Assembly: GCA_029834535.1 (NCBI GenBank)
Contig: JAQMWT010000004.1
Span: forward strand, 46,309-110,308
Direction of reading: 5' to 3'
Source of the DNA: Chrysophaeum taylorii
Lineage: Eukaryota > Sar > Pelagophyceae > Pelagomonadales > Pelagomonadaceae
DNA length: 64,000 bases
Position 1 is the stretch's first letter. Every line of letters begins with the position of its first letter. Of this stretch, positions 9,354-54,696 are shown piece by piece. A program made the translations under genes and the position numbers. The notes under the pieces are model-generated. The model saw nothing but the letters and a program-made list of their open reading frames with translations. It had not been told where the DNA came from and did not search any database.

Positions 9354-11857
9354 CCACGGTCATGGATTCCGTGAAGCACTTCAAAAATGGACACGGCCGA
9401 TCGTCTTCGACACGACCGGGCCGTCGAGATAGCCGGAGCCCCCGACGCCGCGAGAAGAGCCGCAGTCACAGTTCGCGTTCGCGCCGACGGAAGGAAAGCC
9501 GGAGCCCTAGCAGACATTCGCGCCGACGCCGGCGACGAAGATCTCGCGACCGCGATTCGGACGGTGGACGTTACCGAGAAGATTCGGGACATTCGTCTGC
9601 CACGTTCGCATTTACGACCCCGTGCGGTCAACAGTTACCATTCGGAGTGATGATGTACCCGGACACGGACACCCGCTCCGACGACGCAGCCGACGCCCTT
9701 GCCGCGGCCGCATTCGACGATCGTGCTCGTCCGCCGCCGGACGAGCCACCCAACGAAGTGCTGACCGATCGTCGGTCTTTGGCACGGATTTATGAAGAGA
9801 TGTCAAGCGATGAACTCGAAGAGTCGAGCAATGAACTCGACGCTCCACGATACTGGGAAAGCGATTCGGACTCGGAAGACGACGAAGCCGCACCTTGTGA
9901 GCCAGTGTCCTCGATTACGCTACTTGAAAAGTCGTCCAAGGACGACCCACCGTTTGTTTTTGACGAGGAAGCCCTCGACGCTATCGGCCTATATTTGGAT
10001 CCCCCCGAGATGACCTTTGGCGACCGGACTGGCAGTGAGCCAGACATGGATGTCTGCAGCGATAGCACGGATGATCATTCGACAGATGAGACGATGACCA
10101 TTGCGAGCGATGCAGAAGACGACCTTACGATAGATTTGACGTCGGGGACGACGCCATCTTTTCCTGCGGACCCCCCCGAAACGGTTTCGGTTACGACGGA
10201 TCGAGCCACGGACACACCGCCGGAAGAAAAGGATGCGAAATCGCACATTGCGCCGGACGAGAAGCTACGTGCACGGTCCGATGATGAAGGGGACGCTCCT
10301 CCAATCGAGCAATGCCTGGATTTGTCACCGCCCGAAGAAGAGAGCAGTCGCGGCGTTGCCGGAGTCGAGCCGAACCCGACCGAAGAAGATGGATGTAAGA
10401 AGAAGATTAGCAGCGTTCTCGATCGGGACGAAGAGGAGCCGACGTGGAACCTGCAGGATTGGTGGACGAGAACTCGGAACTTCTTGCTGAAGAATCCACC
10501 AGAACGACCGCTCAGCAACGGAATCGAAGCCGCAGCCGACACGGAACCGATCGGCACCGACTGTGACGATCAACAGATTACGAATGAATATACGGATGCA
10601 GTATGGAAAGACGAAATGAACGATTTATGCGAGAGGTCCTTTGCTTCCGAGAACGCCGAAGACCAGGATCCCCTACCAGTATCGATTCCCTCCGAGATTG
10701 CCATGGAGGAAGAGCGGAAGCCACTAGATAAAGAGGCTGCCGCGAGCGTTGCGTCGATGACGCCGACGACAGATGATACGAGAGCTCAAGCCGCGGTGTC
10801 GATGCCCAACCCCGGCGACGAGCGAGTCAAAGCCCGATGTTCTCACACTTCGTTAACGCCGCAAGATGGCAAGACTATCGAAGATGAGTTGGTTACCCTC
10901 AGTTGTTTGGATACGGGTGCTCTTACGTTTATGGCCTGTCACATCTACAGGGATCGTGACGGACCGAGATTCTCGGCGACAATCGGTGTCGATGGAATGG
11001 CAGATGTTTCTTATATTCGCCGCGAAATGGTCAGAAAGTTGGCCAAAGATAAGTTGATTTTCGATGAAGGCGAGCTTCCGATTAAGCCCAAGCTGTGCGG
11101 ATCGGGGTTGAATACGACGACGATCTATCGTTGGATCGCGATCCGGGTTGCCCTCGCCGACGACATCGCTGCCCCCATTGTCGCTATTGTGGCCGACACC
11201 AATTATCTTTTCCTGTTGGGAGGGCGCGATATCCGAGTTTCAGGAGCCGTCGTGGACAACCCCCACGATCGGATCTGTATTTATCGAACCCAAGTCGTCT
11301 ACGGACGCAAGAAGATTAAAGTCAAGGGCGAACGAGTCGATGCACCCATTGTGACCTTTCGATCTGTTTACGATCGAGACCCGATAACCGTGCCGATTTA
11401 CAATCATCAGCACGACGCCTTTCGGCAGAGTCTCGACCTGGTCAAGACTCGAGTTTACGCTCGTCTGAGCACGATTAAAGATCTCCACAGCCCGCCGCCA
11501 GAACGAGCGGTAGCCTTGACGACGCGGGGACATTCTACGACCAAACTCTCCCCAGCTCCGGGAGAAGCCGCGCGGGAAGTAGTTGCTTACGCTGCGCGCA
11601 CGCTTCAAATCGAGCCCGGTCGAACTTGCAATTTACCGGTTATTTTGTCGAAGCCTATGGAAAAAGGACAGGTTTTCGTTGCTACGTTTGCTGAAAACGA
11701 GCAGTTGGGAGTTGTCGAAGGGATGTGTTCTTCTTGCGAAGAGCACGACAGGTCATCTGCTCGCGTGGCTGTGACTTCACGGATGAAGTGCCGACGGTCG
11801 TCACTCAAGGCGAGGTTCTCGCAATTGGCGACATCGTTCGGTACGAAGATGAGTTGA
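9179..11857 (+). CDS. Gypsy-1 Gag C-terminal RS domain, acidic region and aspartic-protease-like domain
   Basis: Open for 892 residues. Residues about 70-130 (nt 9390-9570) form an arginine-serine domain (SRSPRRREKSRSHSSRSRRR) like those of splicing factors. A very acidic, Asp/Glu-rich stretch follows (nt 9750-10300). The protease-like region (nt 10960-11300) has IGVDGMADVSYI where retroviral-type proteases have D(S/T)GA, and LFLLGGRDIRVSGAVVD where they have ILGxDFL. The catalytic Asp position is kept, but the following Thr/Ser and Gly are replaced by Gly and Met in both Gypsy copies. The frame is lost at about 11785, where the sequence shifts into the methyltransferase frame. The upstream Gag zinc-knuckle-like piece (CxxC...H...C) begins in the preceding frame. 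Confidence 0.8.
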   Translation: MAMCKYIENDKKPPSRGRWESRQKKDNQSRDDGSSNATLGSSAAHDVQNSLNDMGAQLTTVMDSVKHFKNGHGRSSSTRPGRRDSRSPRRREKSRSHSSRSRRRKESRSPSRHSRRRRRRRSRDRDSDGGRYREDSGHSSATFAFTTPCGQQLPFGVMMYPDTDTRSDDAADALAAAAFDDRARPPPDEPPNEVLTDRRSLARIYEEMSSDELEESSNELDAPRYWESDSDSEDDEAAPCEPVSSITLLEKSSKDDPPFVFDEEALDAIGLYLDPPEMTFGDRTGSEPDMDVCSDSTDDHSTDETMTIASDAEDDLTIDLTSGTTPSFPADPPETVSVTTDRATDTPPEEKDAKSHIAPDEKLRARSDDEGDAPPIEQCLDLSPPEEESSRGVAGVEPNPTEEDGCKKKISSVLDRDEEEPTWNLQDWWTRTRNFLLKNPPERPLSNGIEAAADTEPIGTDCDDQQITNEYTDAVWKDEMNDLCERSFASENAEDQDPLPVSIPSEIAMEEERKPLDKEAAASVASMTPTTDDTRAQAAVSMPNPGDERVKARCSHTSLTPQDGKTIEDELVTLSCLDTGALTFMACHIYRDRDGPRFSATIGVDGMADVSYIRREMVRKLAKDKLIFDEGELPIKPKLCGSGLNTTTIYRWIAIRVALADDIAAPIVAIVADTNYLFLLGGRDIRVSGAVVDNPHDRICIYRTQVVYGRKKIKVKGERVDAPIVTFRSVYDRDPITVPIYNHQHDAFRQSLDLVKTRVYARLSTIKDLHSPPPERAVALTTRGHSTTKLSPAPGEAAREVVAYAARTLQIEPGRTCNLPVILSKPMEKGQVFVATFAENEQLGVVEGMCSSCEEHDRSSARVAVTSRMKCRRSSLKARFSQLATSFGTKMS

Positions 11858-12792
11858 ACGTTTCTACGATCAACGAGCTTGCGAACGAATGTGAAGAAGG
11901 GTACGACAAGGGGAACCCTTCTTTCGCCGTTTCCGTCGCTAGTCACTTGACGCGCTGCGACGAATCTCCCCCACCGATGTTGCTGATCACGGCGCAGAAG
12001 GACGCTCCAGCCGCTGCTGTGGACGAGTCCTCCCCCAAACGACGAAAGCGAGACGACGATTTTGCTCGACGGTCTGAAGAAGATGAAAAGAAGTGCCGCG
12101 AGATCACCGAAGCGGTGATCCGCCGCCGATACGAAAAGGTTCGATGGCTTCCGACCACTTATCGCAAGGTGGTGACGCTGTTCAGTGGAGCCGGAGGCAG
12201 GACATTAGGTCTCCAACGAGCTAACGAAATGTGTGGGACGTCGTTTCGAGTCGTGCTAGCACTCGATGCGTCGGACACCGCCAACAAGATCCACCGCATG
12301 AATTTTCCGAACATTCCTGTGGTGCAGCAAACGCTTTGTGGTCGCTATGTTACAACCTTGCAGTTGATCGAATCTTATTTACCTCACGCGGAATGGTCGT
12401 CGTCGATGTGTATCGCGTCGCCACCCTGCGTCCACTCCGCTCTGTGCAACTTGACTTCCAGAGATGTTGGGAAGAGAGTCACCGCCACCCACTGGACGAT
12501 GAAATTATGCTAGATGGCAGGTTTCTTCATGTGGTCGATAGAGCAGGAGGTCTCGATTATTTATTATGTTGCGCGTTTACACCCTTACGTGTACGTCGTC
12601 AATTTTTACGACATAGCGCCTCGTTTGATGAGCTGTCGCGTGCGGTTATAGGTTTCCAGCAATCCGCTCCATTTACGAGCAGTTCCCAAGACTCGCAAGA
12701 ATATGCAACAAGAGTTCGCCGCTGCGCTTGGCTACGCAGACGAGCGGCATTTACTTCAGATGAACAATTTAGGATCATCACGAGCCGCGACA
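11785..12792 (+). CDS. C5-cytosine DNA methyltransferase-like domain of Gypsy-1
   Basis: Open from within the frame to 12513, then continuing past a TAG at 12511-12513. Motif I is VTLFSGAGGRTLGL (nt about 12172-12213), the AdoMet-binding FxGxGG loop. Motif II/III is VVLALDASDTANKI...NFPNIPVV (nt 12250-12325). Motif IV is IASPPCVHSALCN, with the catalytic cysteine codon at 12427-12429. Past the stop come HPYVYVVNFYDI, where the ENV motif VI would be, and SCRVRL, like the QxRxR motif VIII (up to about 12645). The stretch ALGYADERHLLQMNNLGSSR (nt about 12720-12780) may hold motifs IX-X. It lies directly after the protease and before the reverse transcriptase. The domain call is firm from motifs I and IV. 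Activity is unlikely in this copy because of the stops and the missing ENV glutamate. Confidence 0.88.
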
Positions 12793-12869
12793 GACGCAGC
12801 TTATGAGTTACGCGTGTCCCGCTTCGCGTAGGACCGCACCGTTCCGATTACAGATCTCTGAATCTGAAA

Positions 12870-13642
12870 ATGACTTCGGAGTTGCTGACGATGCCCCTTG
12901 ATTTTGATTGGGCCGGCTTCTCCAGGACGACGTCGTTGAAGCACTTGGCGTCCGTCGTGCCACCAGACACGATGGCTTTATTGGTACTCGATCTGCACAA
13001 CTCGGCCACCAAGGATTTTCGCCTGGGCGGCGAGGCTTTGCCGTCCGCGTTGAGTCCTGCAGGCCGACCGTTTGATTATTATTTGCAAATCGACGAAACC
13101 ACCCTTCGTCACGTACAAGTTCCGCTGTTAAACACGCGCACACGTGTCGTAAGATGGGTGTCGACTGATGATCTCCAAGATCGCACCAAATGGAAACCTC
13201 CAGAGGTGCCGTTGCTTCCGCCTGCAACAGATGAGCCGGGGACGTCTCATGCTTCTTCTGCTGCCCCCCCCCGGCAACCAGATTTGGACGTTCCGCCAGA
13301 TCCCGAGCGAGATCGGGAACCGATGATTAAGAGCGAGCCGAGTGTTCGTGTCAAGGCGAGAAGATCAACAAAAGCCACCCGGAAGTGAGACTCGAATATG
13401 AGAAAAAGTTCGATGTGCCATGGAAAGATGCGCCGCGCGATACTGATGGTGCACCGCTGCCGCAAACTCCCGAGCATGTCAAAGATAACCCCGTTATGAA
13501 AGTGAAGATTCCTACGAAGGAAGAAGTTGACAAGGTTGTTCGGGAGCTTGGAATTCCTGACAATCGGCACTTAGATGACGAGGCGAAGCTGATGCTCCGT
13601 CACTGTGTGCAATATTCTTGGTTTTTTTCGACCCGATTATGA
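12870..13642 (+). pseudogene. Gypsy-1 linker between methyltransferase and reverse transcriptase
   Basis: Two overlapping frames (12870-13388 and 13385-13642) encode a region well conserved with copy 2 (51200-50325). It has SVVPPDTMALLVLDLHNS, a Pro-rich stretch around 13200-13320 and then TKEEVDKVVRELGIPDNRHLDDEAK. No known catalytic motif was recognised. Conservation between two roughly 80-percent-identical copies indicates it was real protein, perhaps the tail of the methyltransferase module plus the N-terminal extension of the reverse transcriptase. A 1-base shift at about 13375-13385 breaks it. Confidence 0.6.
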
Positions 13643-16495: not shown

Positions 16496-16496
16496 C

Positions 16497-18150
16497 GCCC
16501 GCAGGATTAGCCCGAGCATGATGGGGAATCGTGGTACTATACCGAACATTGAAGAGATGACAAAACTCTTCCATCAATTTGTTGACGAACTCTTCTCCAT
16601 TGTCAGTACGACAAGAAATAAGAAAATGGATCAAAAAAGATGATCAGGTACGTCTCGGGACCGGCACTAGGCAAGGGTCCGAACAAATCCATACACAGGA
16701 CGGAGCAATCACCATCATACACAGGTTGCTGAAGAAGACCTGCTCTCTTTGGTTCAGGCGTGCGAGCTTTCTTGCACACTATGCAACCAGCAATATAAGC
16801 ACCCACCTCATTAGACATGTGGGACCACCAAGAACGTTCAAGTATCGACTGCACCGTACTTTGACGACCCATGTGACCACCACTGAGAGGTGTGTCATGG
16901 TACAATCGGACGATGCGCGTCCGTGAAGTTCGGGGTGCGACTATCATCGGGTGCAAGTCAGGTGCGGCACGATAGAGGACTCCTTTCACCACTCGATAGC
17001 GACAATTGGTTCCGTACCGACGAAGAGAATGGCCTTGAGCCATGCGATAACGAATCTCCTCGCAAGGTAGCATCAGTGATCTGCTCTTTGGCTATCTCTT
17101 CCAAAGTCAAATTATCCGGAATCTTGTCGATGTACGCTTGGTAATCATCGGCATCACATAAAATACTAGGTTGGGTCTGCAGACGTTGCTTCTGACGTTG
17201 TCTCGTAGCGTGAGACGTGACCAATTGCATCGGATCGTCGCGACCATCTTCTTCTTCCTCCACAGGCAGCTCAGTCGTAACAAACGAAAGAATGACATGG
17301 CACCCAGGTAAAGGTACTCCTTCATCATCGACAGGGCGAGGAAGTTCTTGGCACACTAGGCACGCACACTACGTACGCGTGGTTCAAGGGTTCACCAAAC
17401 TCATCCGTCTCGATGACATGATCGATAGGATTGCGAGAGAGAGAGTCAGGGATACTCATTCCCGGCGACTTTCCTAGTCTGCAACCCAATTCAGGATCGA
17501 AATTGGCGAACCGCATCGTCCATCGAGCCAATTGCCCAGACGAGTGCTTCGCCTTTCGTAAAAACGTCAAATTGCGATGATCCGTCTCAAGGATCGTCTT
17601 GTGACCTTCGATATGAGAGCGAAAATGCACAAGAGAAAGAATAACTGCCAGTAGCTCTAGCCGGCGGGGCTCATAGTTCCGCATCTCTTTCGGCTCGGCT
17701 CCAGTACTCAATCACTCGTTCCTGTCGTGTCACCTTGCCGGTTTCGTCCTTGACTTCCACGAGCCGAAAAAAATACGCGCCCAGACCATCCTTGGAAGCA
17801 TCCGAGCGGATCTGAAAAGGAATATCGTAGTCAGGATGATAAACTCCGCGAGAGTCCACCAAAGCTTCGATGATCGTGTCCCATGCCTTTTGGCACTCAG
17901 GCGCCCACTCAAACTTAACGCCTTCAAGACACAATCGCCTAAGCGGCTCCACTTCGAATAATTCTTCACATATCGGCGGCAATAGTCGCTCATGCCAATG
18001 AAAGATAGAATCGGGGTCTTCTGGGACGTGTCAGGCAACGTACCGGGAATCGGCATTTGCTGCAGCGCTTCTGGAGTCTTGGGATTCGGCTTCAAGCCGC
18101 CCGGAGTCGAAATATGTCCCAAAAACTCGATTTCATCCTCGAGGAGGTGG
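16497..18150 (-). pseudogene. Gypsy-2 3' part: end of reverse transcriptase, RNase H and integrase core
   Basis: Read on the minus strand: GHISTPGGLKPNPKTPEAL (18122), the RNase H block with SDASKDGLGAYFF (about 17815) and LETDHRNLTFLRK (about 17570), then the integrase zinc finger (YHDTPLSGGHMGRQ, about 16880-16910). CMDLFGPLPSAG follows with the catalytic Asp intact (about 16660-16700), then RTDNGEEF and finally FNVRYSTTIPHHARANPAG (16555-16500). The alignment with Gypsy-1 ends at about 16497. The left edge at 18150 is the target-site copy GGTGG of the Copia-1 insertion. Frameshifts near 17325 and 17680 break the frame. Confidence 0.85.
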
Positions 18151-18464
18151 TGCAGAGTATTCCGCTAGGCAGTGGTTAGATCACTGAGAGACCATCCCGT
18201 CTCACCGCGTGAGTCTGGCAAAGGTAGGTTTCAGGGAACCCAGGCAGTGGTCCCCATAGCCTCGGCACACGACAGACGACACACAGCAACACTTCAGCGT
18301 AACATGTAATTGCTACGTACCTGCGGGACGCGCTAGACCATGATGATGAGCGCGAGCACAGATCAGAGGACTATTTGACTGTGTAGAAAGGAAGGAAAAG
18401 GGCAAGGAAGAGGTCGCGTTCTCGACGGACGGAACAAGGGTAGGAGTTAGCAGATTTCTCTGCG
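18151..18464 (-). repeat. 3' LTR of Copia-1
   Basis: 314 bp, matching 40215-40528 at more than 90 percent by eye; starts TGCAGAGTATTCCGC and ends TTTCTCTGC. Differences from the 5' LTR include several transitions and a changed last base, indicating an old insertion. The adjacent polypurine tract (minus strand GAGGGGGCG) is at 18465-18473. Confidence 0.85.
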
Positions 18465-18804
18465 CCCCCTCGAGATGTCTCGTGGTTGAGGAACATGACA
18501 TATATTGAGAAATGTGATGGAGGGCGAGATCAGGATAAACAAGAAGTGCACTTCAGAGGTCACATAAAGTGGCACAACAGGTTCATCAGCAGACAGATGT
18601 TAGGGCTTGGACTTGGTGATAACACTCTGAATGCTTTTGGCAAGGGAAACTTTGAAGGAGGGAAGTGAACGTGATGAGGCAGATGTCAATGATAACGGTG
18701 AGGAGATTGCTTGGTCCTCTTGGACTTCACATATAGCGGAAACGTCATCATCTTCAGGTTCAGAAGGATGATTGATGCTCCTTGCAGAGCAAGGTTGAGG
18801 TATG
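18465..18804. other. Copia-1 3' non-coding region
   Basis: Between the 3' LTR and the SINE-like insertion. Short frames only; no recognisable protein. It holds the polypurine tract at its left edge and one copy of the SINE target duplication (GTTGAGGTATG) at its right edge. Confidence 0.6.
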
Positions 18805-19196
18805 CCTGCGATCGCTAACCGTTGGTTGCGATGGAGGACGGCGCCTAACACGCTTGCTCCCTGCGACGGCCCCGGCCGTCCCGGAGTGAGACGGTGCCTG
18901 CTCGCCTCCCGGGCTGGCCGGTTAGCACCCGGAAAGTCCGCGCTGGGACGGGGTTCGCTCGGTTGGACAGAACGCGACGGACAGGTCGATTGTTCGCGGA
19001 CCAACACGTCCGCGACCTGCGACGCTTTTGCACGACCTCGCACAATACCGCGCGCGGTGGCGGTCCACCATCAACCAACTCCGCCCTCGTCCCTCTGCCC
19101 CAACTGCGCGAATTTTCTCTGTGATTCCGCACCGGCTCCTGCCGGTCCGGCCTGGCTCCCATGCTCGGGAGAGGTCTGAAGCTAGTTAGTTAGTTA
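18805..19196 (+). mobile_element. SINE-like retroposon, divergent subfamily
   Basis: About 390 bp between perfect 11-bp target duplications GTTGAGGTATG (18794-18804 and 19197-19207), ending in (TTAG)n. It shares the head (GGTTGCGATGGAGGACGG) and the last 50 bp (GTCCGGCCTGGCTCCCATGC, then GGGAGAGGTCTGAAG) with the other copies, but its middle (about 18950-19120) is unrelated to theirs. Frames across it exist only because it is GC-rich. Confidence 0.8.
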
Positions 19197-20411
19197 GTTG
19201 AGGTATGATCCTGTGGGTAAGAGCAAGCAAGTGATGCAAGATTTGAGGGATAAGGCTGCTCGATTGCAGTTCATCGAGGTTATTCTCGAGGAACTGTGGG
19301 ATGGTGAAAGGATCTTGAAGGGACTCAGTTTGTTGTGAGGCAGGATGATGAGTCGTGCGGATTAACTCGTTTCGGAGTTGAAGGAGAGTATCATCAGGCA
19401 TGCCAAACACTAAGTCGTGTTGGTCATTCAGTGCGAGAGTGAGTCCATTGAGTAACTCACACACCGTGAATAGGGCTACCAGCAGAATATTGGTATTGGT
19501 AGTCTGGGAATAGCCGATTTTCCATGTCACGGAGGTTTGTGACAGCAGTGGTCAAATCAGACCGTAAAAAAAAAGAAGAAAAAAGCAGCATTTTCGGTAG
19601 TTAAGGAGTGGAGGCGCTGGTCCATTTGCCCATATGAAGTTTGGAGAGTTATAGCCTGTTGGGTAAGTTGAGTCACCTGAGAGGATAATGCCGCAAGATC
19701 TGGAAAGGTGGCAGTAATAGGTTGTGTTGGTGCCGGGGCAGTAGGTGCCACTGGCGGGTAGTTTAATGACTCTTCGGTCGCAGCGGTAAGTTCGTTATAG
19801 AGATCAGGGTAACGTGATGATAAGAGCTTAGCAAAATCTTTGCGATCGGTGTCGCAAAAGGCAGTTGGTGACGATACTTCGTCAAAGATAGATGGTGGTC
19901 GTTCATCATCCGCTAGTGTGCTGTACTCAGTAATGTGATGTACGAGAGAACGGCAGGGAGCGTGAACCAAAGGCTGATAAGCGCTTGCCTTAATAATCGA
20001 CTGTCTCTTTGCATGTGTGCGAACAATTGTCACAAAAAGCGACAAGTGTTCAAGATGAAGCCGACAAATATACTTGAGGTTGAAGGGGTAGGCCACCGCA
20101 TTTGGTTATTCTGTTGAGTGACATTGAACACCACAGCATCGGCAAATGTTTCTAGGGAGCTGGAGCCAGGCCGGATTGCAGCAGCAGAGGATGAAAGCAG
20201 ACGGGTAATGTCGTCGCGATTCGGTTTCCTGCGGTTCGGAGGAGTGTTGGTAGACAATTCAGCGGGCGTAAGTGTGCGAGGTAGTTCGCGACGGACGGGC
20301 GTGACTCCACGTGGTGGCTGCTGCGCCAGTGATGCATTGGCGACGCACACAAACAAAAGTAGTGGCAAAAGATGAGGGCTAGTTTAATGACATTGCGGTC
20401 AGGGCTAGAGA
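19197..20411 (-). pseudogene. Copia-1 extra coding region downstream of RNase H
   Basis: Minus-strand frames 20368-20030, 20096-19557 and 19530-19186 cover a region that normally does not exist in Copia elements, which end soon after RNase H. One frame reads SSPTAFCDTDRKDFAKLLSS, then ATEESLNYPPVAPTAPAP, then a heptad-like stretch around 19570-19680. It is entered through a TAMSLN(stop)P site at about 20384 and contains another SLNY at about 19765. It may be a Gag-like protein left by an older element or a genuine third product. No family was recognised and the frames are broken. Confidence 0.45.
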
Positions 20412-23582: not shown

Positions 23583-23587
23583 GGATC

Positions 23588-33719: not shown

Positions 33720-33723
33720 TACC

Positions 33724-33919: not shown

Positions 33920-33924
33920 GGATC

Positions 33925-34812: not shown

Positions 34813-34818
34813 TGTGAC

Positions 34819-38720: not shown

Positions 38721-38734
38721 TTGATGTGTGGACA

Positions 38735-40594: not shown

Positions 40595-40599
40595 ATGAC

Positions 40600-41876: not shown

Positions 41877-42703
41877 AGCGAAGCGATATGCTTTAACCTA
41901 TCTTCTTCGTATAGCCCATTGAGTTCGACAATCTTTTTAGGCTCATAGACGATATCTTCAGCAACCACGAGTTGTAATACGACATGATCGATGTGCTGCA
42001 AGTCATAGTCCATGACTTCTTGGAGAATATCTTGATTCGGATCACTTTGACTTAGGAAGAGGTGTCCGAGTTCGCCATAATCATGCGTGAAGGCATGCCT
42101 GTGACGAGACGCTAAGTGGTAGTGCTGATGCGCTGAGATGGCCCACAAAAGAGAGGAGCTCATACAACAGAATTCTTGGTTCCATTGACGCGCATAGTAC
42201 TCTGCCGGTGACAGTTCGTCATGGCACACATAGTTCTCGAGAACAGAATTGTCGTTGTCCAGGTGGTCGACCAATACAGATGAGTGGTGCGGCTTCCTTG
42301 GGAAGTCGACGCACAAGAGTTCTGCGTCGGTTTCTCTCTGCAGATCCAGTGCAGTGCCGCCCATGATACCATAGTCTTGTGTGGTATTTGCTAGGTGGCA
42401 TCCTTTCGGGACATCATTTGGCGGCCTAGCATCCCTTCTAATGTTGAGATCGGATGCGATGCTGGCGGCGTGGCCCTGGTGCAGAGCGCTCACACTGATG
42501 AGGAACATCAATGTGCTGGACATGTTGGCTGTGGCGTGAGCCGTGGATTGCTCCTGCTGGTATTTCCAGTTGCGACCTTGCTCTGAGGCGATAATGCGCC
42601 TGGTGAAGAGCTTTCCATCGTCAACACGTTTCGCGATATAGAGTTGATCCTTAAGGATGCGAACTCCGCGCTCGTCCTTGAGATCTGCCTTGAGTTTGTC
42701 ACT
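41877..42703 (-). pseudogene. Right Copia-2 pre-reverse-transcriptase linker
   Basis: Frame 42523-41870 and the preceding stretch match 28396-26470 of the left copy (SALHQGHAASIAS, DYGIMGGTALDLQRETDAEL, EVMDYDLQHIDHVVLQL). A TAG at about 42704 replaces the Gln of the left copy and ends the long upstream frame. Its 3' end is cut at LKHIAS by the SINE. Confidence 0.85.
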
Positions 42704-45700
42704 CTAGTTACGATGCACGATAACTGGAGTAAAACCTGAATCGTCGAGAACAACCTCTAGTCGATCATTTCGTTTGGGCATCGGAATGCTACCATCCGCC
42801 GGGGGTGGCCGGTTGAGAAACGAAAAATCCTGTCCAGGTGTCTCGTCGCTGACGGGACTTGGATCAGCAGCAGGGGTTGGATCCGGTTCTTTGTGCTCGT
42901 CGTCATCTTCAGGTTTGTCATCATGGGTGTCATCTTGAGTCTCGCCCTCATGTTTCGATTCCTGTCTAGCTTCCGGCATTTGCTGTTCGCTTATAGCTGG
43001 GAGCGGGTCCTCTTGCCGTGACTCTGTTGGGATCTGCGTGAGTGCTTTGATCCGTTCGATCTCCTTGTTGCGGTTGACTGGCATGTCTGCATCAACGTGG
43101 AAGTCGTTAGAGGTGACGATTTTTCCATATCGCCCCTGATGTACAAGCAGTAGGGAGCTATGAACATCACGGATAAATCGGTCCGTGCCGGGGAGGTTGG
43201 GGACGTAATTGTTGCTTGTGAGATAGGAGGCGGAGACGCTGGAGGGTTCCAGCTTGTGACTTTGAGGGTAGACAAAGGTGACAGGTTCACCAAAGGGAAG
43301 GAGCTTCAAGAGCGGTGCCATGGGTGACATGATGCGCCGGGGGACGGTGCAAGTCATGTTTGTGCGCGAGGGCAGTCCATGAGAGCGCTGGTTGTCGGCT
43401 TGGATCTTGCGCAGCAGAGCAAATGGGTGATAGTACTCGGCGGCAATGGACTTTCCTTCGATGCGGACACTGCGCAGATTGAGGAGGCGAACTACAGTGC
43501 CTCGGGTGTTTTCCTTTATGATGTTTTCCGCAAAGTTCCGCTGGTGGCGGTGGCGACCAATGATTTGAAACTGGATGCCGAGTTGCACCTTGAGCGGGTG
43601 GAATGCTTCGGAGCGGAAAGTTGAGAATGCATCGGATGATATAATTTTCGCGTTTACATCGAATTCGATCTTAATCACATTGACCACGTAGAGGATGCCA
43701 GCCAGAACGTCCTGTGCGTCTAGTTTCCGCATAAAATAGACCCACTTGTGTGCTGAGATAATACAGACAAAATGCATGATGTTGCAAAAGCCACCATAGC
43801 ATTTGCTGATGCTCGGGTATGAGACATCCATATGGGGATGTTGGCCAGGAGCATAGGCCAATTCATCCTGTGACCAGGAGTTGTTATTGTGACTGAAGCT
43901 TACATGCGATTGGCAGCGCTTGCATTCACTGCAGTCTTGCAGATACCGATCATCACCTGGGCGGAGATTCGTTACATTGGCGGCAATCGTGCGGCGAAGA
44001 ATCTCTGGTTGCTGGTGATGTATGCGGTGCCAGCGAGTGACCAAAAGCACTCCTTTGGCGTGCTGAATGGCGCCGGGCGTGTGCAAGGGAGGCAGAGCAG
44101 TAGTCGAAGCGCTGGGGGGACTGGGTCGCTTGTCAACTCGGACTTTAGCAACGGTTGCCTCGGCAAGAAGCGTCTCGAGGTTTTTCGATTTGTTTGGTTT
44201 GCGGATCGCATCATAGTGAGCATCTGCTACGGCATTGAAGAGGGAGGTGAGGTTGAGGTCCTCCTCTGCTAAGAGACGGCTGGAGATACTCAGGAAGAAT
44301 TCTGCAACCTGGTTGATGTCTCCGGGGCTGGGGATGCCATTGCGTATTGTTGCCCATTCGATGTGAAAGTTCACGTGGTGGTGCGATTCGTGGAGTGCGA
44401 GGACAGCGCTGTACTTTGCCTGCAGCATGTGGTGCGGGACGGCGTTGGCCAGTGCCTTAAACGCGAAGTACGGCGGGTGCTGTTGGAACAGGCGGAGCAG
44501 TTCCGGGTCCGAGTGGTGTCCAAACTTTGCGATTTCGTTGAGGGTCGCATAGCGGATGTGGTCTGGAGAGATCAGCAGCAAGGCGTTGGAGTAGCTCGTG
44601 TTGGTTGGGTACGAGCCAGTGACCGAGTAACACTTGGTGCTTTTCTGAAGCGTGTCTCCGATGTGGCCGACATAGTCCGCGTAAGTGGGACGTGCTTTGG
44701 ACATTATGAGTCCCTTGGGGTCATCGAGAGTAATTCGCCCTCGTGAGTCGATCGCGGCAAAGCCAGGATGCGAACGATTCATGTAGTGGACCCAAGTGGA
44801 CGGGCGCGAGCAGCTGTGAGCGGCGGCCAAGGAGGTGGTGTAGGCGACGACCAGAAAGGCGGTGCCCTTGGGAACATCCAGGGAAAAGGCGTGCGTTGGG
44901 GAGAAGACTGCGGGTTGATGTGAACAGTCCAATATCCGAGGGGGCCTGGAGTGTAGGGTGAGGGAGGCGCGGGGAAAATAGCCACAGGCGACGGCAGTAG
45001 CGACGGTGCCGGTGATGGCTCCATCCAAATGGTAAGCACATTGGGACTCTGAGGCATGAAAACAGCGGAGGGTGTTCCAAGCGGCGAGAGTGGGATGTTG
45101 CGACAAATGATTGTGCAGCAATGTGAAAACCAGTAGGTGGGAAATGTACTCCATGGTGGCGTAGGGGGTGCCGTCGGCATCTAGACCGAGATCCGTGAAG
45201 GGCTTGGTGAAGCGTGCGAGCATTTGGCAGATGCGGGCATTTTCGGAAATCGAGAGTTTGGAGGCGTTGGCGGGTGCGTAGGAAAAAGTGGCCTTGTGTT
45301 GGTAGTAGGTCAAGGTGGAGCGGGCCACAGTGCCACGAAGGGCGGGGTTGGCGATCCATAGATCGTCGGGGATAGTGTTGCTGGGGTCCAGAAGTGGAAC
45401 CATGCTCGGTTGCGATGTTAACCAAGGAGAAGCGTCTTTCTCGAGGTTGTAATCGGTTAGCGGGTGTCGGGCATAGACAGCGAGATATCGGGTTTTGCTG
45501 ATGGCGTCGCCGAAAGCGGAGGCATTGTAGACACCGGTGTGTTTGAAGTAACCTAAGCGCTGATAGCCTTTGGCGAGTTGGGTGTACTCGTGATGAGTTC
45601 GGGGGTTGGGAGGGACGTTCTCGACAATGGCGTAGGTCGGGAGCGTGCAGCGAACAAAGCGGATTTGTTCTGTGACGAAAAGGTCGGCGGTCACCGGAGT

Positions 45701-46243
45701 GGCGTCGCCGTCATATTCTTTCATTGCACTCAAATGTTGACATGGCAGTTTGAAAACCGCCAAGTCGAAATGGGGTAGTCGAATTTTGCCGGTTTGCAGA
45801 GCGGCATTGAGTTTTCGTAGATCGGCATAATGCTGAGCGTGCGGGAAGAGTTGTTGCGCGCGAGCGCGCATAATAGGGTGAATTTCACAGGTGACCACGA
45901 CAGTAATACGGTTGTCGAAGCGTTTGCGAAAAGAGATGAAACCTTCTTGGTGAAGTCCACCTGCAATAATAGCTGTTTTTAGCGGAGGGGGTTGTGCTTG
46001 CGCACAGAGGTCCGCTGAGGTAGTGAAGGCATATTGGACAACAGTACGCGGGAGGCTAATGAGGTCCGATAAAAATATGGAGTGATGCTGTAGCTTAGCA
46101 AAATCCAACATGTGAGATTGCGAGCGTGTCTTTGCGACGTGCTGTGTGATGTGTGCTAGTTCATCCTCGAGTGACATTCTTGTTCCAGTGTGAAAGCTAA
46201 CCACAGCGCGGAATGTTTGCTTTGGATGCGAGTGCATGGACAA
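42704..46243 (-). CDS. Right Copia-2 polyprotein: C5-DNA methyltransferase-like domain, integrase and linker
   Basis: A 1179-residue uninterrupted frame and the best-preserved gene here. Residues 88-260 are a DNMT-like domain: AIIAGGLHQEGF (91-102, motif I), VVTCEIHPIMRARAQQLFP (motif II, Glu120), FDLAVFKLPCQHLSAMKEY (motif IV, catalytic Cys168), TYAIVENVPPNP (motif VI, ENV 208-210), GVYNASAFGDAISKTRYLAVY (motif VIII region). About 330-700 is a conserved unknown region that may hold the target-recognition part and motifs IX-X. The integrase follows: WHRIHHQQPEIL...CSECKRC, then HMDVSYPSISKCYGG, KIISSDAFSTF and NFAENIIKENTRG as D, D, E. The start codon is arbitrary because the upstream coding sequence is cut by the SINE at 46318. 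It stops at a TAG where the left copy has Gln. Confidence 0.9.
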   Translation of the reverse strand: MSMHSHPKQTFRAVVSFHTGTRMSLEDELAHITQHVAKTRSQSHMLDFAKLQHHSIFLSDLISLPRTVVQYAFTTSADLCAQAQPPPLKTAIIAGGLHQEGFISFRKRFDNRITVVVTCEIHPIMRARAQQLFPHAQHYADLRKLNAALQTGKIRLPHFDLAVFKLPCQHLSAMKEYDGDATPVTADLFVTEQIRFVRCTLPTYAIVENVPPNPRTHHEYTQLAKGYQRLGYFKHTGVYNASAFGDAISKTRYLAVYARHPLTDYNLEKDASPWLTSQPSMVPLLDPSNTIPDDLWIANPALRGTVARSTLTYYQHKATFSYAPANASKLSISENARICQMLARFTKPFTDLGLDADGTPYATMEYISHLLVFTLLHNHLSQHPTLAAWNTLRCFHASESQCAYHLDGAITGTVATAVACGYFPRASLTLHSRPPRILDCSHQPAVFSPTHAFSLDVPKGTAFLVVAYTTSLAAAHSCSRPSTWVHYMNRSHPGFAAIDSRGRITLDDPKGLIMSKARPTYADYVGHIGDTLQKSTKCYSVTGSYPTNTSYSNALLLISPDHIRYATLNEIAKFGHHSDPELLRLFQQHPPYFAFKALANAVPHHMLQAKYSAVLALHESHHHVNFHIEWATIRNGIPSPGDINQVAEFFLSISSRLLAEEDLNLTSLFNAVADAHYDAIRKPNKSKNLETLLAEATVAKVRVDKRPSPPSASTTALPPLHTPGAIQHAKGVLLVTRWHRIHHQQPEILRRTIAANVTNLRPGDDRYLQDCSECKRCQSHVSFSHNNNSWSQDELAYAPGQHPHMDVSYPSISKCYGGFCNIMHFVCIISAHKWVYFMRKLDAQDVLAGILYVVNVIKIEFDVNAKIISSDAFSTFRSEAFHPLKVQLGIQFQIIGRHRHQRNFAENIIKENTRGTVVRLLNLRSVRIEGKSIAAEYYHPFALLRKIQADNQRSHGLPSRTNMTCTVPRRIMSPMAPLLKLLPFGEPVTFVYPQSHKLEPSSVSASYLTSNNYVPNLPGTDRFIRDVHSSLLLVHQGRYGKIVTSNDFHVDADMPVNRNKEIERIKALTQIPTESRQEDPLPAISEQQMPEARQESKHEGETQDDTHDDKPEDDDEHKEPDPTPAADPSPVSDETPGQDFSFLNRPPPADGSIPMPKRNDRLEVVLDDSGFTPVIVHRN

Positions 46244-46317
46244 CAGGCCATTGGTTTGGCGATTGGCGAGAACTATTGCTGTTTTTCCTATAATCTTCTT
46301 GTAATCGTGGGGATCCT

Positions 46318-46689
46318 TACCCTGATCGCAGACCGCATGGTTGCGATGGAGGACGGTGCCTCATGAATCCTGACCCTTGCGAGGGCATCCGCCCTCCCGG
46401 CGTAGGTTGGCACCTATTCGCCTCTCGGGCGGGCCGGTTGGCAGCCGGAACGTTCGCAGTGGGACGGGGTATGGCCGGGGGGCGCAGACGGAAGGTTATC
46501 GACGAGTTGGTTGTCAGTCACATCGCGGTCTCCTCGTCGCATGGCGACAAGCTTGATGATCACTCTCCGCCGACCCACCTTTCGGCGCCCCTCGTCTACA
46601 GGCCCGTGATTCCGGACTGGCTCCTGTCGGTCCGGCCTGGCTCCCATGCTCGGGAGAGGTCTGAAGTTAGTTAGTTAGTTAAGTTAGTT
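46318..46689 (+). mobile_element. SINE-like retroposon with perfect 15-bp target duplication
   Basis: About 372 bp, TTACCCTGATCGCAGACC to (GTTA)n. The flanking copies AATCGTGGGGATCCT at 46303-46317 and 46690-46704 are identical; the empty site is seen at the equivalent place in left Copia-2 (about 30903, AATCGTGGGGGTC). The clearest proof that this family moves as a retroposon. Confidence 0.92.
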
Positions 46690-46704
46690 AATCGTGGGGA
46701 TCCT

Positions 46705-47330
46705 CGGTCGACGTGTTTATAAGCTCATAAAGGTATGGTTCGTGTGGCAATGGCGGGTCGGTTGCTTGGACATTTGGAGCTTTGAGCTGCGATGTTGCTA
46801 TAACCTGTAGACCTTTTCTTATCGGAATTGCGAGACGACCAGAAATACGAGATATAAAGCGTAGCCGGTGGATTCTTTTATGTCGCTTGAGGAGAGATCT
46901 GCGGCCTGCAAGTACAACGGTTTGACACCGATGAAATGGCTGGTCAAGGTGCCTCTTCCTATGCGTATGGTGTGTTCGAGAATCCGGCGTATGGACTCGG
47001 GAACAAAGTGTCGAATTGTGCGGGTGAAGCAAAATGATGCGCCACCGTCAATTAAGGACGTTTCGGTGCCGGGTCCATTGCACCCGTGCAGCGAGCTAGT
47101 CTTCTTTGAGGTCTTGCCTGGAGTGTAAGTTGCACAAATAAAATCTGCGACTCTGGGGGAGATTGTTGATGATGTCGGGAAATTCGTCATCGTGAGGCTT
47201 GGTGCCTGATTGAGTAAGATGTGGTTGGCGGCACAGGCGTCGTCGGCAACCATCAGCGAAAAAGCTGACTCTGGTGGAGAGCACGCATGTAGTCACTGTG
47301 ACGTTGTGCGTGATCATCGGCAGAATCATC
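46705..47330 (-). pseudogene. Right Copia-2 aspartic protease
   Basis: Frame 47253-46819, minus strand: GTETSLIDGGASFCFTRTIR with DGGA, then LTSHFIGVKPLYLQAADLSS. It corresponds to 31463-30900 of the left copy. A shift near 46860 moves it into the frame running toward the methyltransferase, which is interrupted by the SINE at 46318-46689. Confidence 0.78.
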
Positions 47331-49490
47331 TTCGTCGTGGACTTCGGGGATGGTGTCGTCGTAGAGGCCTAGGTGTCTGTGGTCATCATAGAAACCGAGA
47401 TGGCCTTGGCCATATTTTTCGTCAGTTTCGCCCTCATCAGGTGGATCATCCTGAGGACGACGATAGCACCTGAAGAAACTCAGCGGCATCGCTATCGGCT
47501 TCGGAGAGAAGTATCTCCTCGGAGATGGTGGTGATGAGGTTGATTAGCTTGCTCATGCGCTCGGAGCTGGACGTGTGTTGGCGACCGGCTTGGCTGAGAT
47601 TCCGCATGGTTTGGAGCTTGCGACGGACTTCACGAAGGGGGACCTTGAATCGTTGGTCAGGAGTATATGGTTTGGGCGGATGCGGTTGGGTTGGGAAGTT
47701 GACCTTGCGAAGATGCGGGTGCTCGCGTTTGTCGGGGGTGACAGGAGCAGCACGGGGATTTTGCTTGTTCTTCTGTGGGGTGACAGGGGTGGCTTTGGGC
47801 TTTGGACTGTCATTGATGTCATAGTACGACGGAGAGCGAGGATTGTGAGGCTTTTCGGGGGGGGGCTTCTTGGGATGTCGTGTAAACGGCTTCCTTCTAT
47901 AGGCGTGTAATTGTTGGATGAGATCATTGTCGTCATCTTGATCGAGGTCGGCCTCGGCCTCCGTGAGAAAAACAGCGACAGGGCCGGTGTCTCCAGTGGG
48001 ATCCGGAGGGATTTCATCTTCGGAGGGAGAGGTGTAATCATCGTCTTCGGAGAGGTGGAGACCATGACGGCGGGAGTGAAAACGTGGATTGTCTTTGTCT
48101 TTAGTCGGCAGACGACCAAAGTCAGTGACGAATCGCAAAGGCCTGAAGTTGAGGATGGGATGAGGCTCGAGGTGAGCCCAAAAGTTGCGCTCAAACGTGG
48201 AGATGACTGTGATGCGAGCGATTAGCTTGGGAGGGTGATGGATGGCTTCCTTGTCTTCGTCGAGCAACAGCGAGTCGTTTGGAGTACGCAGACAGTTAGC
48301 AAGACGCGCGAAGCCCTTGATGTGTGTTGGGGCGCGGGAGTCAAGCAAGCTTGGGGGGTACTTAAAGCGAAGTAGTTGGTGGATTTCTTCGAGGATCTTG
48401 GCGTCGGAGAGTTGTAGAGAAGCATCGTTTGTAATCTGGCGCAGTTGCGGCTGGACATGACGCATATATTCAATATAGTGCGCGGGCTCGTGGATCTCCG
48501 GGTTGAACGTGAACGGCGTGTCCAGAAGGCATTATAGACATAATGCGTATGGTGGACGTGGTTCTGGCCCTTGTGCTTGTCGAGTGCGAGGCGAACTTGG
48601 AGTACGAATTCGAGTCCTATCGGATGGGAAGATCCGAGTGCGTCAATTTCGTCGTATGCTGGGTGCTTGACGGAGTCGCTACCGGCATGCAGGAAACGGC
48701 GAAACAGGGGGTGCACGGTCTCGCGGAGGTACACGATGAAGTCGGCTTCTTTTCCTTGAAGGTGAGGTTGGGTGATCGGGTACAACTTGCCTTTCGTCGT
48801 ATCGGTCGGGTCTTTGTCTTGGTCTTTTAGTTCTTGGGGTTTTGGCTCGTATACGTTCTCCAAGAAGTGTTTACCGAACGTGCGGTAGACGCCTTTGTAG
48901 TAGACGTAACGGGCTTGGAAGTCTTGCGTGTTCCCTGATGTAGCGTGGTGGTCGGGGTCTTTATCGTACTCTTTGATGCAGTGGCTGAGAAGAGCGTCAG
49001 CGAGATCGTTAGATCCACGCAAGACGGATTCCCACGTATAGAAGCCCTGCAGGAAACATTGGGTTGTGCCTGTTTTAGGCGTCACATGTTCAACGAACAA
49101 CTGCATGACACGAAACGAAAGCATTTGGGGCGTGACTTGTGCGGAGTCCATGGACTTGAAGACGGCGCTAGATGGGCCATTAAAGGTGTTAGCCTTGGTC
49201 TTGGGGTCTTGTTGAGCTGGAGGGGGGGGTGGAGCCGCAGCAGCGACGGCAGGTGGTGGTGCTCCTTGCGTAGCTTGCATTTGGGCGGCGAACGCGGTGA
49301 ATTGAGCATTGAATTCTGCCCTCAAGCGACCTTCTTGGTCTTTCATGGCTTGAGCATGTTCGGTCTTCTGAGTGGCCAACTCTTCTTGAAGTTCTTTATT
49401 GGCTGGCATCTTGTTTCGGTTCAGGAACGTCAGGGAGCGGAACTCTTCTGGAAATCCTGAGGCTCTGCTGATACCGGGACTGGTGCCCAA
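47331..49490 (-). CDS. Right Copia-2 Gag
   Basis: Frames 49490-48222 and 48465-47446 on the minus strand. Coiled-coil start (LQEELATQKTEHAQAMKDQE), Pro/Ala linker, capsid-like helical part (TPQMLSFRVMQLFVEHVTPK), then an acidic and basic tail with ATPVTPQKNKQNPRAAPVTP. A frame change at about 48520 divides it. The start near the LTR (MGTSPGISRASG) is shared with the left copy, supporting it as the true initiator. Confidence 0.78.
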
Positions 49491-49494
49491 TACC

Positions 49495-49688
49495 TAGAAA
49501 ACAGTAATTTCAACTGTGCTACCCTTCAGCAGAGCGTGAGAACAGTGGTAGTCTGCCCTCGAATCTGTCTCCTAAAACGAGGACAGCCGGTGTGAATAAC
49601 ACAGCGTTTTCTATCAAAAGGTGCTAAAGTTAAGGGAACTAACCCTATAATAGGGGTTACTAACCCTAATTCGGATTTTCTATCTCTA
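49495..49688 (-). repeat. 5' LTR of right Copia-2
   Basis: 194 bp, TAGAAAACAGTAATTTC to TTTTCTATCTCTA, with a 3-bp deletion relative to the 3' LTR. The inner edge adjoins the candidate primer site TTGGGCACCAGTCC (minus strand). Confidence 0.9.
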
Positions 49689-50500
49689 ATGACGGTGGAG
49701 TTCATCCGATCCCATCATAATATCGTCGACAAACGCGACCAAGTCCTTATACATCCATGTGGACAAATCGCTAGCCATCTGCTTACAGAAGAGAGCTCCT
49801 GCTGTTTTCACTCCCAGAGGCAAGCGCAAGAAACTATGGGCTCCAAGTGGACTAACCATCGTGACGGCGTCCTGAGCGGCGGCGTCCAAACGTAGGTTAT
49901 GATAACCCCATCGAATATCAATGCACGTCCGCCAACGGCGCATGGCAAGAAAAGCCATGCATCATCTTGACGAATATTCGGCCAACTGTCATTGACCAGC
50001 TGTTCATTGAGCTGACGCAAGTCAATTACAGCACGAAAAGCATTCGACGTCCCGGCCTCTGCTCCCTTCTTAGGCAGCATCAGTACAGGGCATCCCCACG
50101 GAGAGTTCGCCGGTCGGATGACTCCATCGCGACAACACTCGGTGATCTGCTTTCTGAGACACTCGAGCTTTGCTGGCGTCAACCTATAAGGCGTCATCTT
50201 GATCGGTCGTGGGTTTTCGTCTTTAAATCGCAGAGAAACCGGCGGCGAATCCACGGGTCTCATAATCGGATCAAAAAAGGCCCACGCGTATTGCACGCAG
50301 TGGCTCAGCATCATCTTCGCATCCTCATCCAGATGCGGGTTGTCGGGAATTCCCAATTCTCGAACAACCTTCTCGACTTCTTCCTTCGTCGGAGTTGCGA
50401 CTTTCATCTTCGTTGTCCTTGACGTGCTCCGGCGGCCGCGATAACGGTGCACCGTCCGAGCGGCGCGGCACATCCTTCCATGGCACATCGAACTTTTCTT
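49689..50500 (-). pseudogene. Gypsy-2 reverse transcriptase, N-terminal part
   Basis: Minus-strand frames 50488-49808 and 49958-49686: PRPIKMTPYRLTPAKLECLR, WPNIRQDDAWLFL, then (in the next frame) DIRWGYHNLRLDAAAQDAV and VAFVDDIMMGSDELHRH (motif C, about 49735-49700). It is cut at 49689 by the right Copia-2 and continues at 40594 and 18150. A shift occurs near 49960. Confidence 0.88.
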
Positions 50501-51200
50501 CGTATTTGAACCTCACCTCAGGGTGGCTCTTGTTGATCTTTTCACCTTTGACGCTCACATTCGGCTCGCTCCTTACTTTCGGCTCCTGTTCAGGTTCATG
50601 ATCCGGCGGAACGTCCACTTCTGATTGTCGGGGAGGCCCAGCAGAAGAAGCATGAGCCGTCCCCGGCGCATCTGTTGGAAGCGGAAGCACAGATACTTCT
50701 GGCCGTTTCCATTTGGTGGGATCCCGGGGATCATCTCCCGACACCCACTTAACGACACGTGTAGGCGCATTCAACAGCGGAATCTGTACGTGACGAAGGG
50801 TGGTGTCGGCAATTTGCAATTACTGCTCAGATGATCGATCTGTCGGGCTCAACGCGATCGGCAGGACTTCGCCACTTTGGCGGGAACCTCTGGTCACGGA
50901 GTTGTGCAGATCGACTGCTAAAATCGCAAGAGTGTATGGAGGGACGACAGACGCTAAGTGCTCGAATGAATCTGTCTTAGACAGGTCAGCCCAATCATGG
51001 TCCAGCGGCATCGTGAGCAGCTCTGCCGTCATCTGGAGAGTCAAAGGCTGAGTGTCCGAGCGGTGCGGTCGTAAGCGGAGAGGAACTCGCGTAACGGTGC
51101 GAGCCGTATATGTAGCGTCTCGGGACGAACCTAGATTATTCAGCTGGAGCAGGTGGCGTTCATCTGCGTAACCTAATGCAGCAGCAAATTTCTGTTGCAT
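50325..51200 (-). pseudogene. Gypsy-2 linker between methyltransferase and reverse transcriptase
   Basis: Frames 51200-50820 and 50819-50325. The first starts with KFAAALGYADERHLLQLNNL, probably the last methyltransferase motifs, and goes on with LASVVPPYTLAILAVDLHNS. The second is Pro-rich and ends in the TKEEVEKVVRELGIPDN-like segment. Matches 12720-13640 of Gypsy-1. Confidence 0.65.
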
Positions 51201-51790
51201 GTTCGCACAGGTCTTCGGAGCCTCTTGCAGGTGCAGTGGGTGACTGGAGACCTACAACCGCACGCGAGAGCTCATCAAAGTGGGCGTGATATCATGAAAA
51301 TTGACGACGTACACGTAAGGGTGTAAGCGCGCTATATAAGAAATAATGGTCGCCTCCTGTTCAATCAGCCACATCATGAAGCCAGCCACTTTGCACAGCT
51401 TCATCGTCCAATTAGTGGCCGTAACCCCCCTGCCAACATCTCTGGACGTCAAGTTGCAGAGTGCTGAATGAACGCAGGGTGGAGACGCGACACACATCGA
51501 CGATGACCATTCCGCTTCAGGCAAACAAGCCTTGATCAATCGGAGGGTCGTGTCATATCGTCCGCAGAGCGTGTGCTGAACCACAGGTATCTTCGGGAAA
51601 TTCTTTTGATTAATCTTGTTCGCAGCTGTTGAAGAGTCAAGAGCAAGGACGACTCCAAACGACGTCCCGCACAAGTCATTCGCACGTTGCAGCCGCTAAA
51701 GTACTGCCTCCGGCGCCGCTAAATAGCATCACTACCTTGCGATACGTGATCGGCTGCCATTGGACTTTTTCAAATCTTCGGCGAATCTCG
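51050..51790 (-). pseudogene. C5-cytosine DNA methyltransferase-like domain of Gypsy-2
   Basis: Motif I VVMLFSGAGGSTL (about 51740-51700) ends the frame 53415-51676. After a shift, frame 51674-51252 has GVVLALDSSTAANKINQKNFP (motif II/III), SSSMCVASPPCVHSALCNL (motif IV; Cys codon at 51474-51476), HPYVYVVNFHDI in place of the ENV motif, and LMSSRVRL (motif VIII-like). The motif VI glutamate is missing, as in Gypsy-1. The single shift between motifs I and II is the only visible lesion in the catalytic half. Confidence 0.88.
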
Positions 51791-54686: not shown

Positions 54687-54696
54687 TCTTCATCAT

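Follow-up and report, generated by a model that had tools for sequence, protein, structure and literature searches.

Retrotransposons that carry a methyltransferase are already known. Symbiodinium has cytosine methyltransferases in its LINE and DIRS elements and Klebsormidium has them in its Gypsy elements; expressed in yeast, the SymbioDIRS domains methylated CG sites (PMC5890265). Where it treats long terminal repeat (LTR) elements, that 2018 paper names Gypsy, not Copia, as the carrier, unlike a survey in which LTR Copia and DIRS retrotransposons are said to contain DNMT3, with reference to 2018 work on streptophytes and dinoflagellates (PMC12344493). For stramenopiles among other groups, the literature already records Gypsy and DIRS retrotransposons that encode adenine or cytosine methylases (PMC6338049), so that the stramenopile host is in itself no novelty, and a 4mC/6mA-type methyltransferase is reported from a brown-algal DNA transposon (PMC12477816). 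The elements described here, from the pelagophyte Chrysophaeum taylorii, widen this known phenomenon. In a stretch of 64,000 nucleotides (contig JAQMWT010000004.1, positions 46,309 to 110,308; hereafter the window), one Gypsy and two Copia families each carry, after the protease, a domain that, judged from sequence, is very probably homologous to C5-cytosine methyltransferases, as is that of a third Copia family, Copia-3, found outside the window. In the open-licence literature no report was found of methyltransferase-bearing retrotransposons in pelagophytes, nor of a UGA ahead of such a domain. The initial annotation of the window had pointed to precedents in a charophyte alga and in dinoflagellates; Klebsormidium nitens and Symbiodinium are such cases (PMC5890265).

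KnitGypsy-Dnmt3 of K. nitens resembles the Gypsy family of C. taylorii in that a cytosine methyltransferase lies in the Gypsy Pol frame, is present in multiple copies and is under purifying selection (PMC5890265). It differs in host lineage and in its placement in DNMT3, whereas the C. taylorii domain matches generic C5 profiles and is located between the protease and the reverse transcriptase (RT). SymbioDIRS-Dnmt3 and SymbioLINE-Dnmt represent, as here, several methyltransferase-bearing classes in one genome with many copies, in a host that yielded DNMT5 but not DNMT1. However, the Symbiodinium carriers are DIRS and LINE elements, its Copia elements being described without the domain (PMC5890265), whereas in C. 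taylorii it is present in Copia families. The survey likewise places methyltransferases in LTR Copia elements, but its passage on retrotransposons holds no pelagophyte or stramenopile example (PMC12344493). Three Copia families and one Gypsy family in a single genome extend the phenomenon to a pelagophyte, and show that LTR retrotransposons can retain the domain over long periods, and not just as a rare curiosity.

That C5-methyltransferase-like domains follow the protease in both Copia and Gypsy elements, as initially annotated, was borne out by motifs, profile matches and spacing. Motifs IV, VIII, IX and X were found in order after the protease in all five window copies (two Gypsy, two Copia-2, one Copia-1), whereas motif VI was missed in Gypsy-1 and motif I in Copia-1, each being found in the other four; motif I is readable in relatives of Copia-1. 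As the scan patterns were derived from the families' own intact copies, these counts measure retention, not identity. Where both motifs are legible, approximately 230–390 amino acids (aa) separate motif I from the protease motif, and the domain occupies the gap from protease to integrase in Copia and from protease to RT in Gypsy. The protease-like active sites deviate from D-S/T-G, reading D-G-M-A in Gypsy, D-S-C-A in Copia-1 and D-G-G-A in Copia-2. The domains lie where they had first been placed, but the ranges given for them were too short, as they extend on to motif X (Table 1). Motif I is canonical in Gypsy only. The catalytic Cys occupies a single column of a joint alignment in all six sequences checked, and the motif VI Glu is column-aligned in five, that of Gypsy being 7 columns off. 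Among Gypsy copies LIE(Q/R) was retained in 22/22, PPCVHS in 21/22 and RVR in 21/22, and the intact copies examined keep the catalytic Cys together with the motif VI and VIII residues.

The PF00145 profile, proposed earlier as a check, recovered Copia-2 and Gypsy, while Copia-1 on its own failed. The two Copia-2 copies matched with expectation values (E) of 1.8e-7 (copy 2, 1218-aa frame) and 3.1e-9 (copy 1, 29385-30422). The broken Gypsy-1 piece gave E 3.7e-4 (20.4 bits against a cut-off of 22) and the Gypsy-2 pieces of the window gave no match; all 19 intact relatives of Gypsy subfamily A were matched (19/19, best E 2.5e-6), and a subfamily B relative (L082) reached E 3.1e-4, under the cut-off. 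Likewise, NCBIfam TIGR00675 matched Copia-2 (E 5e-7) and Gypsy (0.0013), with no match for Copia-1. Profile searches of the PDB linked Copia-2 marginally to the cytosine-specific methyltransferase 8yf3 (E 0.026), gave DNMT2-type chains for Gypsy at E 0.28-0.3, ranked behind GGA1 at 0.16 and 0.27, and yielded no match for Copia-1. Neither the Copia-2 nor the Gypsy domain matched anything at E ≤ 0.01 in protein databases, and a scan of viral contigs gave no match.

Because PF00145 alone fails with Copia-1, the identity of its domain rests on homology to Copia-2 and on a deep profile. BLAST aligned Copia-1 and Copia-2 in two colinear pieces, covering motifs IV-VIII (18.75% identity) and IX-X (26%), each with E 0.002. 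With hhalign over the whole domains, 0/150 column shuffles scored as well as the real pair (1/30 in an earlier run), and over motifs IX-X 10/150 did so, or 1/150 once Copia-3 was added. Copia-3, represented by one locus (L089, C483:21501-26600), carries the same domain at 52% and 45% identity to Copia-1 in its two halves, with its own versions of the motifs (S-P-C, E-M-T, Q-A-R-E-R). The deep profile comprised 90 rows of DNMT2-type enzymes (the host DNMT2 and relatives) and was the only deep set used; against it Gypsy reached E 6.9e-11, Copia-2 2.8e-5 and Copia-1 combined with Copia-3 0.009, each with 0/60 shuffles as good, and DNMT5, as positive control, 4.4e-6 (0/40). A two-row DNMT5 profile gave 0/60 with Copia-2. 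The motifs of Copia-1 might instead be accidental, methyltransferases being present only in Copia-2 and Gypsy. In keeping with this, neither Copia-1 nor Copia-3 has a significant PF00145 match, and motifs I-VIII of these two families, taken alone, were equalled by 45/100 shuffles against Copia-2 and 18/100 against host DNMT2 (7/100 against DNMT5, 1/100 against Gypsy), as were motifs IX-X by 26/100 against host DNMT2 and 71/100 against DNMT5. Comparisons of shallow profiles are low in power, as even DNMT2 against DNMT5 gave 17/30. The colinear BLAST pieces, the whole-domain and deep-profile shuffles and the persistence of the motifs in Copia-3 across 45-52% identity make chance a very improbable explanation.

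The domains are real, many-copied and conserved. Across the genome searched (70.8 Mb, 697 contigs) many further copies were found for each of the three window families, in addition to Copia-3. Only the best candidates were scored in these searches, so that the counts are lower bounds, and rows may be pieces of one copy: at least 142 rows for the Gypsy domain (142/986 candidates scored), at least 88 for the whole Copia-2 domain (78/771) and at least 151 for its first part (150/346), and at least 78 for Copia-1 (74/1600). Copia-2 RT gave 119 rows; among the 66 compared, 37 are preceded on their own strand, at no more than 6 kb, by a Copia-2 methyltransferase row, with a median gap of 2.4 kb, the pairing being based on 78 of the 88 whole-domain rows and 11 rows from the genome search with PF00145. 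In intact relatives the domain shares one open frame with its Pol neighbours, as in the protease-to-RT frame of one relative (L025), in two frames of more than 3,000 aa and in a 1,952-aa frame of Copia-2 at C96; the stop described below for Copia-1 is missing from the open frames of Gypsy and Copia-2.

The methyltransferase domain is under purifying selection, with ratios of nonsynonymous to synonymous substitution (dN/dS, Nei-Gojobori) mostly of 0.05-0.2, values that are biased downwards somewhat because copies were picked for open frames. Within Gypsy subfamily A the median was 0.178 (167 of 171 pairs, four with dS ≤ 0.03 being dropped), and between subfamilies A and B it was 0.049 (56 of 57 pairs with finite dS; dS 1.55-3.0, near saturation). 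The Gypsy RT gave a median of 0.036 across the same split (16 copies, dS 1.44-1.83). For Copia-2, one copy (L079) gave 0.10-0.15 against five others and the remaining ten pairs 0.14-0.61; for Copia-1 the values were 0.15, 0.18 and 0.29, three pairs involving L064 being saturated. Between the Gypsy subfamilies the domain is 82% identical, the RT 87% and the protease-containing stretch 60%, and within Copia-1 the domain 79%, the integrase 67% and the protease 58%, different copies being compared in each case.

In Copia-1 the protease frame closes at a stop and the methyltransferase goes on in the same frame, and the same arrangement, with an in-frame TGA, is found in Copia-3. The junction was read in 36 loci (35 Copia-1, one Copia-3) with a pattern allowing any codon; 26 were readable on both sides, many of these loci being closely related and thus not independent, and the window copy (L041) was unreadable there. 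The junction codon was TGA in 25/26 and TGG in one, the following base was C in 24 of the 25, and CTA or CTG followed in 22. UGA-C is a leaky stop context. The conserved junction suggests UGA readthrough, with splicing or restart as alternatives. A Sindbis paper titled on the leaky UGA-C context is cited in PMC2194720, which concerns Tca2 of Candida albicans, a retrotransposon in which an in-frame UGA likewise separates gag from the Pol frame. In Copia-1 and Copia-3, by comparison, the UGA lies between protease and methyltransferase and is nearly always UGA-C; in the sections of PMC2194720 on Tca2 no methyltransferase is mentioned, and no readthrough was detected in an S. cerevisiae test system.

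With regard to origin, the initial annotation had left open separate captures or an ancient capture followed by strong divergence. A tree of 30 rows (14 DNMT2, 2 DNMT5, 5 Gypsy, 5 Copia-1/Copia-3, 4 Copia-2), with DNMT2 and DNMT5 as the only references, separated the Copia-1, Copia-3 and Copia-2 rows from the rest with a support of 90/93 (unstarred), and the families, on branches of 2.2-3.6 changes per column, do not form one shallow clade. Because long branches meet, the tree cannot fix the number of captures. Most likely a single capture took place in a Copia ancestor, as suggested by the 90/93 split and the colinear alignment of Copia-1 with Copia-2, Gypsy being either separate or sharing the same capture; three separate captures are thus less supported, but Gypsy may represent a second one. 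Descent of all three families from one capture, with a protease-methyltransferase block passed between Copia and Gypsy, appears somewhat unlikely. It would account for the same post-protease site in both superfamilies and for the alignment of Gypsy with Copia-1 over motifs I-IV (0/150 shuffles as good), and a single clade of all retrotransposon rows was not rejected (p-value of the approximately unbiased test, p-AU, 0.41). Conversely, the best tree groups Gypsy with the DNMT2 and DNMT5 rows, away from Copia, albeit with long branches flagged, and the alignment of Gypsy with Copia-2 was no better than shuffles (22/30 as good).

Two host methyltransferases were identified. A DNMT5-like gene (L002 and L088, on C621) comprises one long open frame with methyltransferase and SNF2 domains and a weak RING, matching PF00145 (7.9e-18), SNF2 (6.8e-14) and PDB chain 7r76_A (E 3e-143); this chain, labelled DNA repair protein Rad8 in the search output, we take to be Cryptococcus DNMT5. 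The host DNMT2 (L001) lies outside the window and its protein is 100% identical to CTAYLR_008533. PF00145 gave at least 57 rows genome-wide (123/474 candidates scored), namely the two host genes and 55 at Copia-2 rows, 33 of the latter assigned by computation and 22 by reading. Neither DNMT1 nor DNMT3 was seen among these 57 rows, in an exon-by-exon search of an assembly with 81.5% of BUSCOs (PMC10366177). The published assembly (71 Mb, 702 contigs) was made with Oxford Nanopore reads, and words beginning with transpos- or retro- are absent from the main text of that paper; the existing reads may permit a methylation test on these elements without new sequencing (PMC10366177). With no host enzymes seen besides DNMT2 and DNMT5, this alga offers a clean system in which to ask if de novo methylation comes from transposons.

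DNMT5 is a maintenance enzyme in fungi. As the Copia and Gypsy enzymes are the only C5-methyltransferases seen in the assembly besides DNMT2 and DNMT5, the host may conceivably have ceded to its retrotransposons the task of methylating cytosines de novo, with DNMT5 keeping the marks, although we regard this as quite improbable; if true, transposing elements would bring new methylation into the genome or supply it.

Taken as a whole, the reading that a Pol-embedded C5-cytosine methyltransferase is inherited as a working part of C. taylorii LTR retrotransposons has, in our judgement, about even chances of being right. Catalytic activity of the domains is probable. The likeliest role would be self-methylation, and the complementary DNA (cDNA) of the element might be the main substrate, a proposal we hold tentatively. 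In Copia-1 and Copia-3, UGA readthrough would yield a minority Gag-protease-methyltransferase-integrase-RT product, and the enzyme would be packed in pol amounts as a result; it would then methylate cytosines of the element's own double-stranded cDNA prior to integration, and this could shape the treatment of the new copy by a host with DNMT5, so that it is tolerated or silenced early, not destroyed. Several observations weigh against the reading as a whole. Motif I of the Copia families is far from FxGxGG, motif VI reads E-M-T in Copia-1 and E-Q-E in Gypsy, and Gypsy motifs IX-X were assigned by eye and were equalled by shuffles in 46/150 against Copia-1 with Copia-3, 11/150 against Copia-2 and 84/100 against Copia-1. 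No PF00145 match was obtained with the Copia-1 window pieces or with Copia-3 (L089), and of four Copia-1 relatives trimmed to the domain two gave E 0.033 (L064) and 0.22 (L071) and two (L075, L072) none. The two-row DNMT5 profile gave 3/60 for Copia-1 with Copia-3 (weak) and 44/60 for Gypsy. An AlphaFold model on an alignment of four window-only sequences was unusable (predicted confidence, pLDDT, 27.6), and the three highest Copia-2 dN/dS values (0.38-0.61) all involve one copy (L077). Finally, CpG depletion is absent in the window (observed/expected 0.87-1.40 across 16 blocks), and 30 aligned Gypsy loci showed no CpG transition excess (C-to-T 2.18% at CpG, 2.03% at CHG, 1.88% elsewhere). The missing footprint argues against heavy long-term CpG methylation with deamination, but is compatible with methylation of non-CpG contexts and of young copies.

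Part of this evidence would also fit a domain that has lost DNA methylation and is retained in Pol for binding nucleic acid or for structure, or that, like DNMT2, has RNA as its substrate (the tRNA primer or element RNA): motif I is degenerate in all three Copia families, the CpG footprint is absent, and the deep profile that detects all three families is of the DNMT2 type, an RNA enzyme, though it was the sole deep set. Since intact aligned copies keep the catalytic Cys, Glu and Arg positions, and the host DNMT5, which belongs to a DNA enzyme family, itself departs from the usual form in motif I (MCSGTEAP) and motif IV (TSC), we consider loss of DNA methylation rather unlikely. Action in trans on host chromatin, where the enzyme would mark host or rival-element DNA and not its own cDNA, draws on the high copy number and on plausible nuclear access if the protease frees the domain. 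We find it improbable, as Gypsy and Copia-2 encode the domain in frame with Pol, and in Copia-1 and Copia-3 it is probably part of a low-level readthrough product.

Self-comparison and flank reading reveal the window as a nest of LTR retrotransposons. The families had been described as lying side by side; they do share one locus, but they are nested, Copia-2 copy 1 in Copia-1, and Copia-1 and Copia-2 copy 2 both in the RT region of Gypsy-2. The Copia-1 integrase reading runs on across the copy 1 site once the 4-bp duplication is removed, and the rejoined Gypsy-2 reading yields RT sequence but contains stops. The LTRs, target duplications and an integrase ahead of an RVT_2-type RT place both Copia families in Ty1/Copia, with a weak integrase match (rve, E 0.01) and with LTR ends and target duplication less clean in Copia-1 than in Copia-2. 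Gypsy-1 shows the Ty3/Gypsy order, RT_RNaseH (7.9e-7) followed by Integrase_H2C2 (7.6e-5, under the cut-off), at 14817-15584. The single RT-bearing Gypsy-2 piece scanned had no Pfam match, its RT being named by eye; Gypsy-2 (52256-49688) and Gypsy-1 (11652-14213) match at 74.7% in DNA.

Table 1. Retrotransposon features of the window, with positions of methyltransferase motifs
Feature	Position	Strand	Remarks
Gypsy-1 (subfamily A) C5-methyltransferase-like domain	12120..13030	+	Frame-broken; limits approximate; I 12181, IV 12418, VIII 12628, IX 12870, X 12948; VI not found
Gypsy-1 protease-like motif GVDGMADVSYI	10985..11017	+	Upstream of methyltransferase; protease name from position and eye-read motif
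Gypsy-2 (subfamily B) C5-methyltransferase-like domain	50880..51780	-	Broken; limits approximate; I 51706, IV 51465, VI 51351, VIII 51255, IX 51009, X 50937
Gypsy-2 gag-protease-methyltransferase-RT part	49689..56208	-	RT interrupted at 49688 by Copia-2 copy 2; outer limit approximate
Gypsy-2 fragment separating Copia-2 copy 2 and Copia-1 insertions	40528..40598	-	Flank reading; contains stops
Gypsy-2 RNase H-integrase part past Copia-1 insertion (inferred)	16603..18150	-	
Copia-1 element containing Copia-2 copy 1	18151..40527	-	LTRs 18151-18463 and 40215-40527, 93.6% identical
Copia-1 protease-like active-site motif	37286..37309		Label from eye and position
Copia-1 C5-methyltransferase-like domain	34970..36690	-	Legible from IV: IV 36381, VI 36267, VIII 36138, IX 35101, X 35008; homology to intact L071, L075 and Copia-3 L089; limits approximate
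Copia-1 RT	21496..22929	-	RVT_2 E 5.4e-37; beyond nested Copia-2
Copia-2 copy 1 in Copia-1 integrase	23587..33919	-	LTRs 23587-23783 and 33723-33919 (97%); 4-bp target duplication GGAT
Copia-2 protease-like active-site motifs	31245..31265; 47035..47055		Label from eye and position
Copia-2 copy 1 C5-methyltransferase-like domain	28930..30600	-	PF00145 and motifs; limits approximate; I 30542, IV 30330, VI 30210, VIII 30078, IX 29122, X 29032
Copia-2 copy 1 RT	24576..25682	-	RVT_2 E 7.9e-39
Copia-2 copy 2 in Gypsy-2 RT	40599..49688	-	LTRs 40599-40796 and 49494-49688 (96.5%); target duplication ATGA
Copia-2 copy 2 C5-methyltransferase-like domain	44324..46000	-	Open frame 559 aa; PF00145, TIGR00675; I 45941, IV 45728, VI 45608, VIII 45476, IX 44519, X 44429

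Other repeats are present in the window. A short interspersed element (SINE)-like repeat of about 362 bp occurs in five copies that are 91-100% identical (38357-38721, 41514-41877, 46307-46683, 54323-54687 and 60903-61274), and the copy read ends in a TTAG-repeat tail. Long frames at 1097-7850 contain RING-like and non-LTR RT-like stretches by eye, and a frame at 56542-57750 resembles a tyrosine recombinase of the DIRS/Crypton type, likewise by eye; the former gave no significant Pfam match and the latter none. Part of 7331-8160 is repeated, inverted, at 59754-60585 with 95.7% identity, and the end of the window (62690-64000) is GC-rich DNA with arginine-rich frames and diverged repeats of about 80-375 bp that are 81-91% identical.

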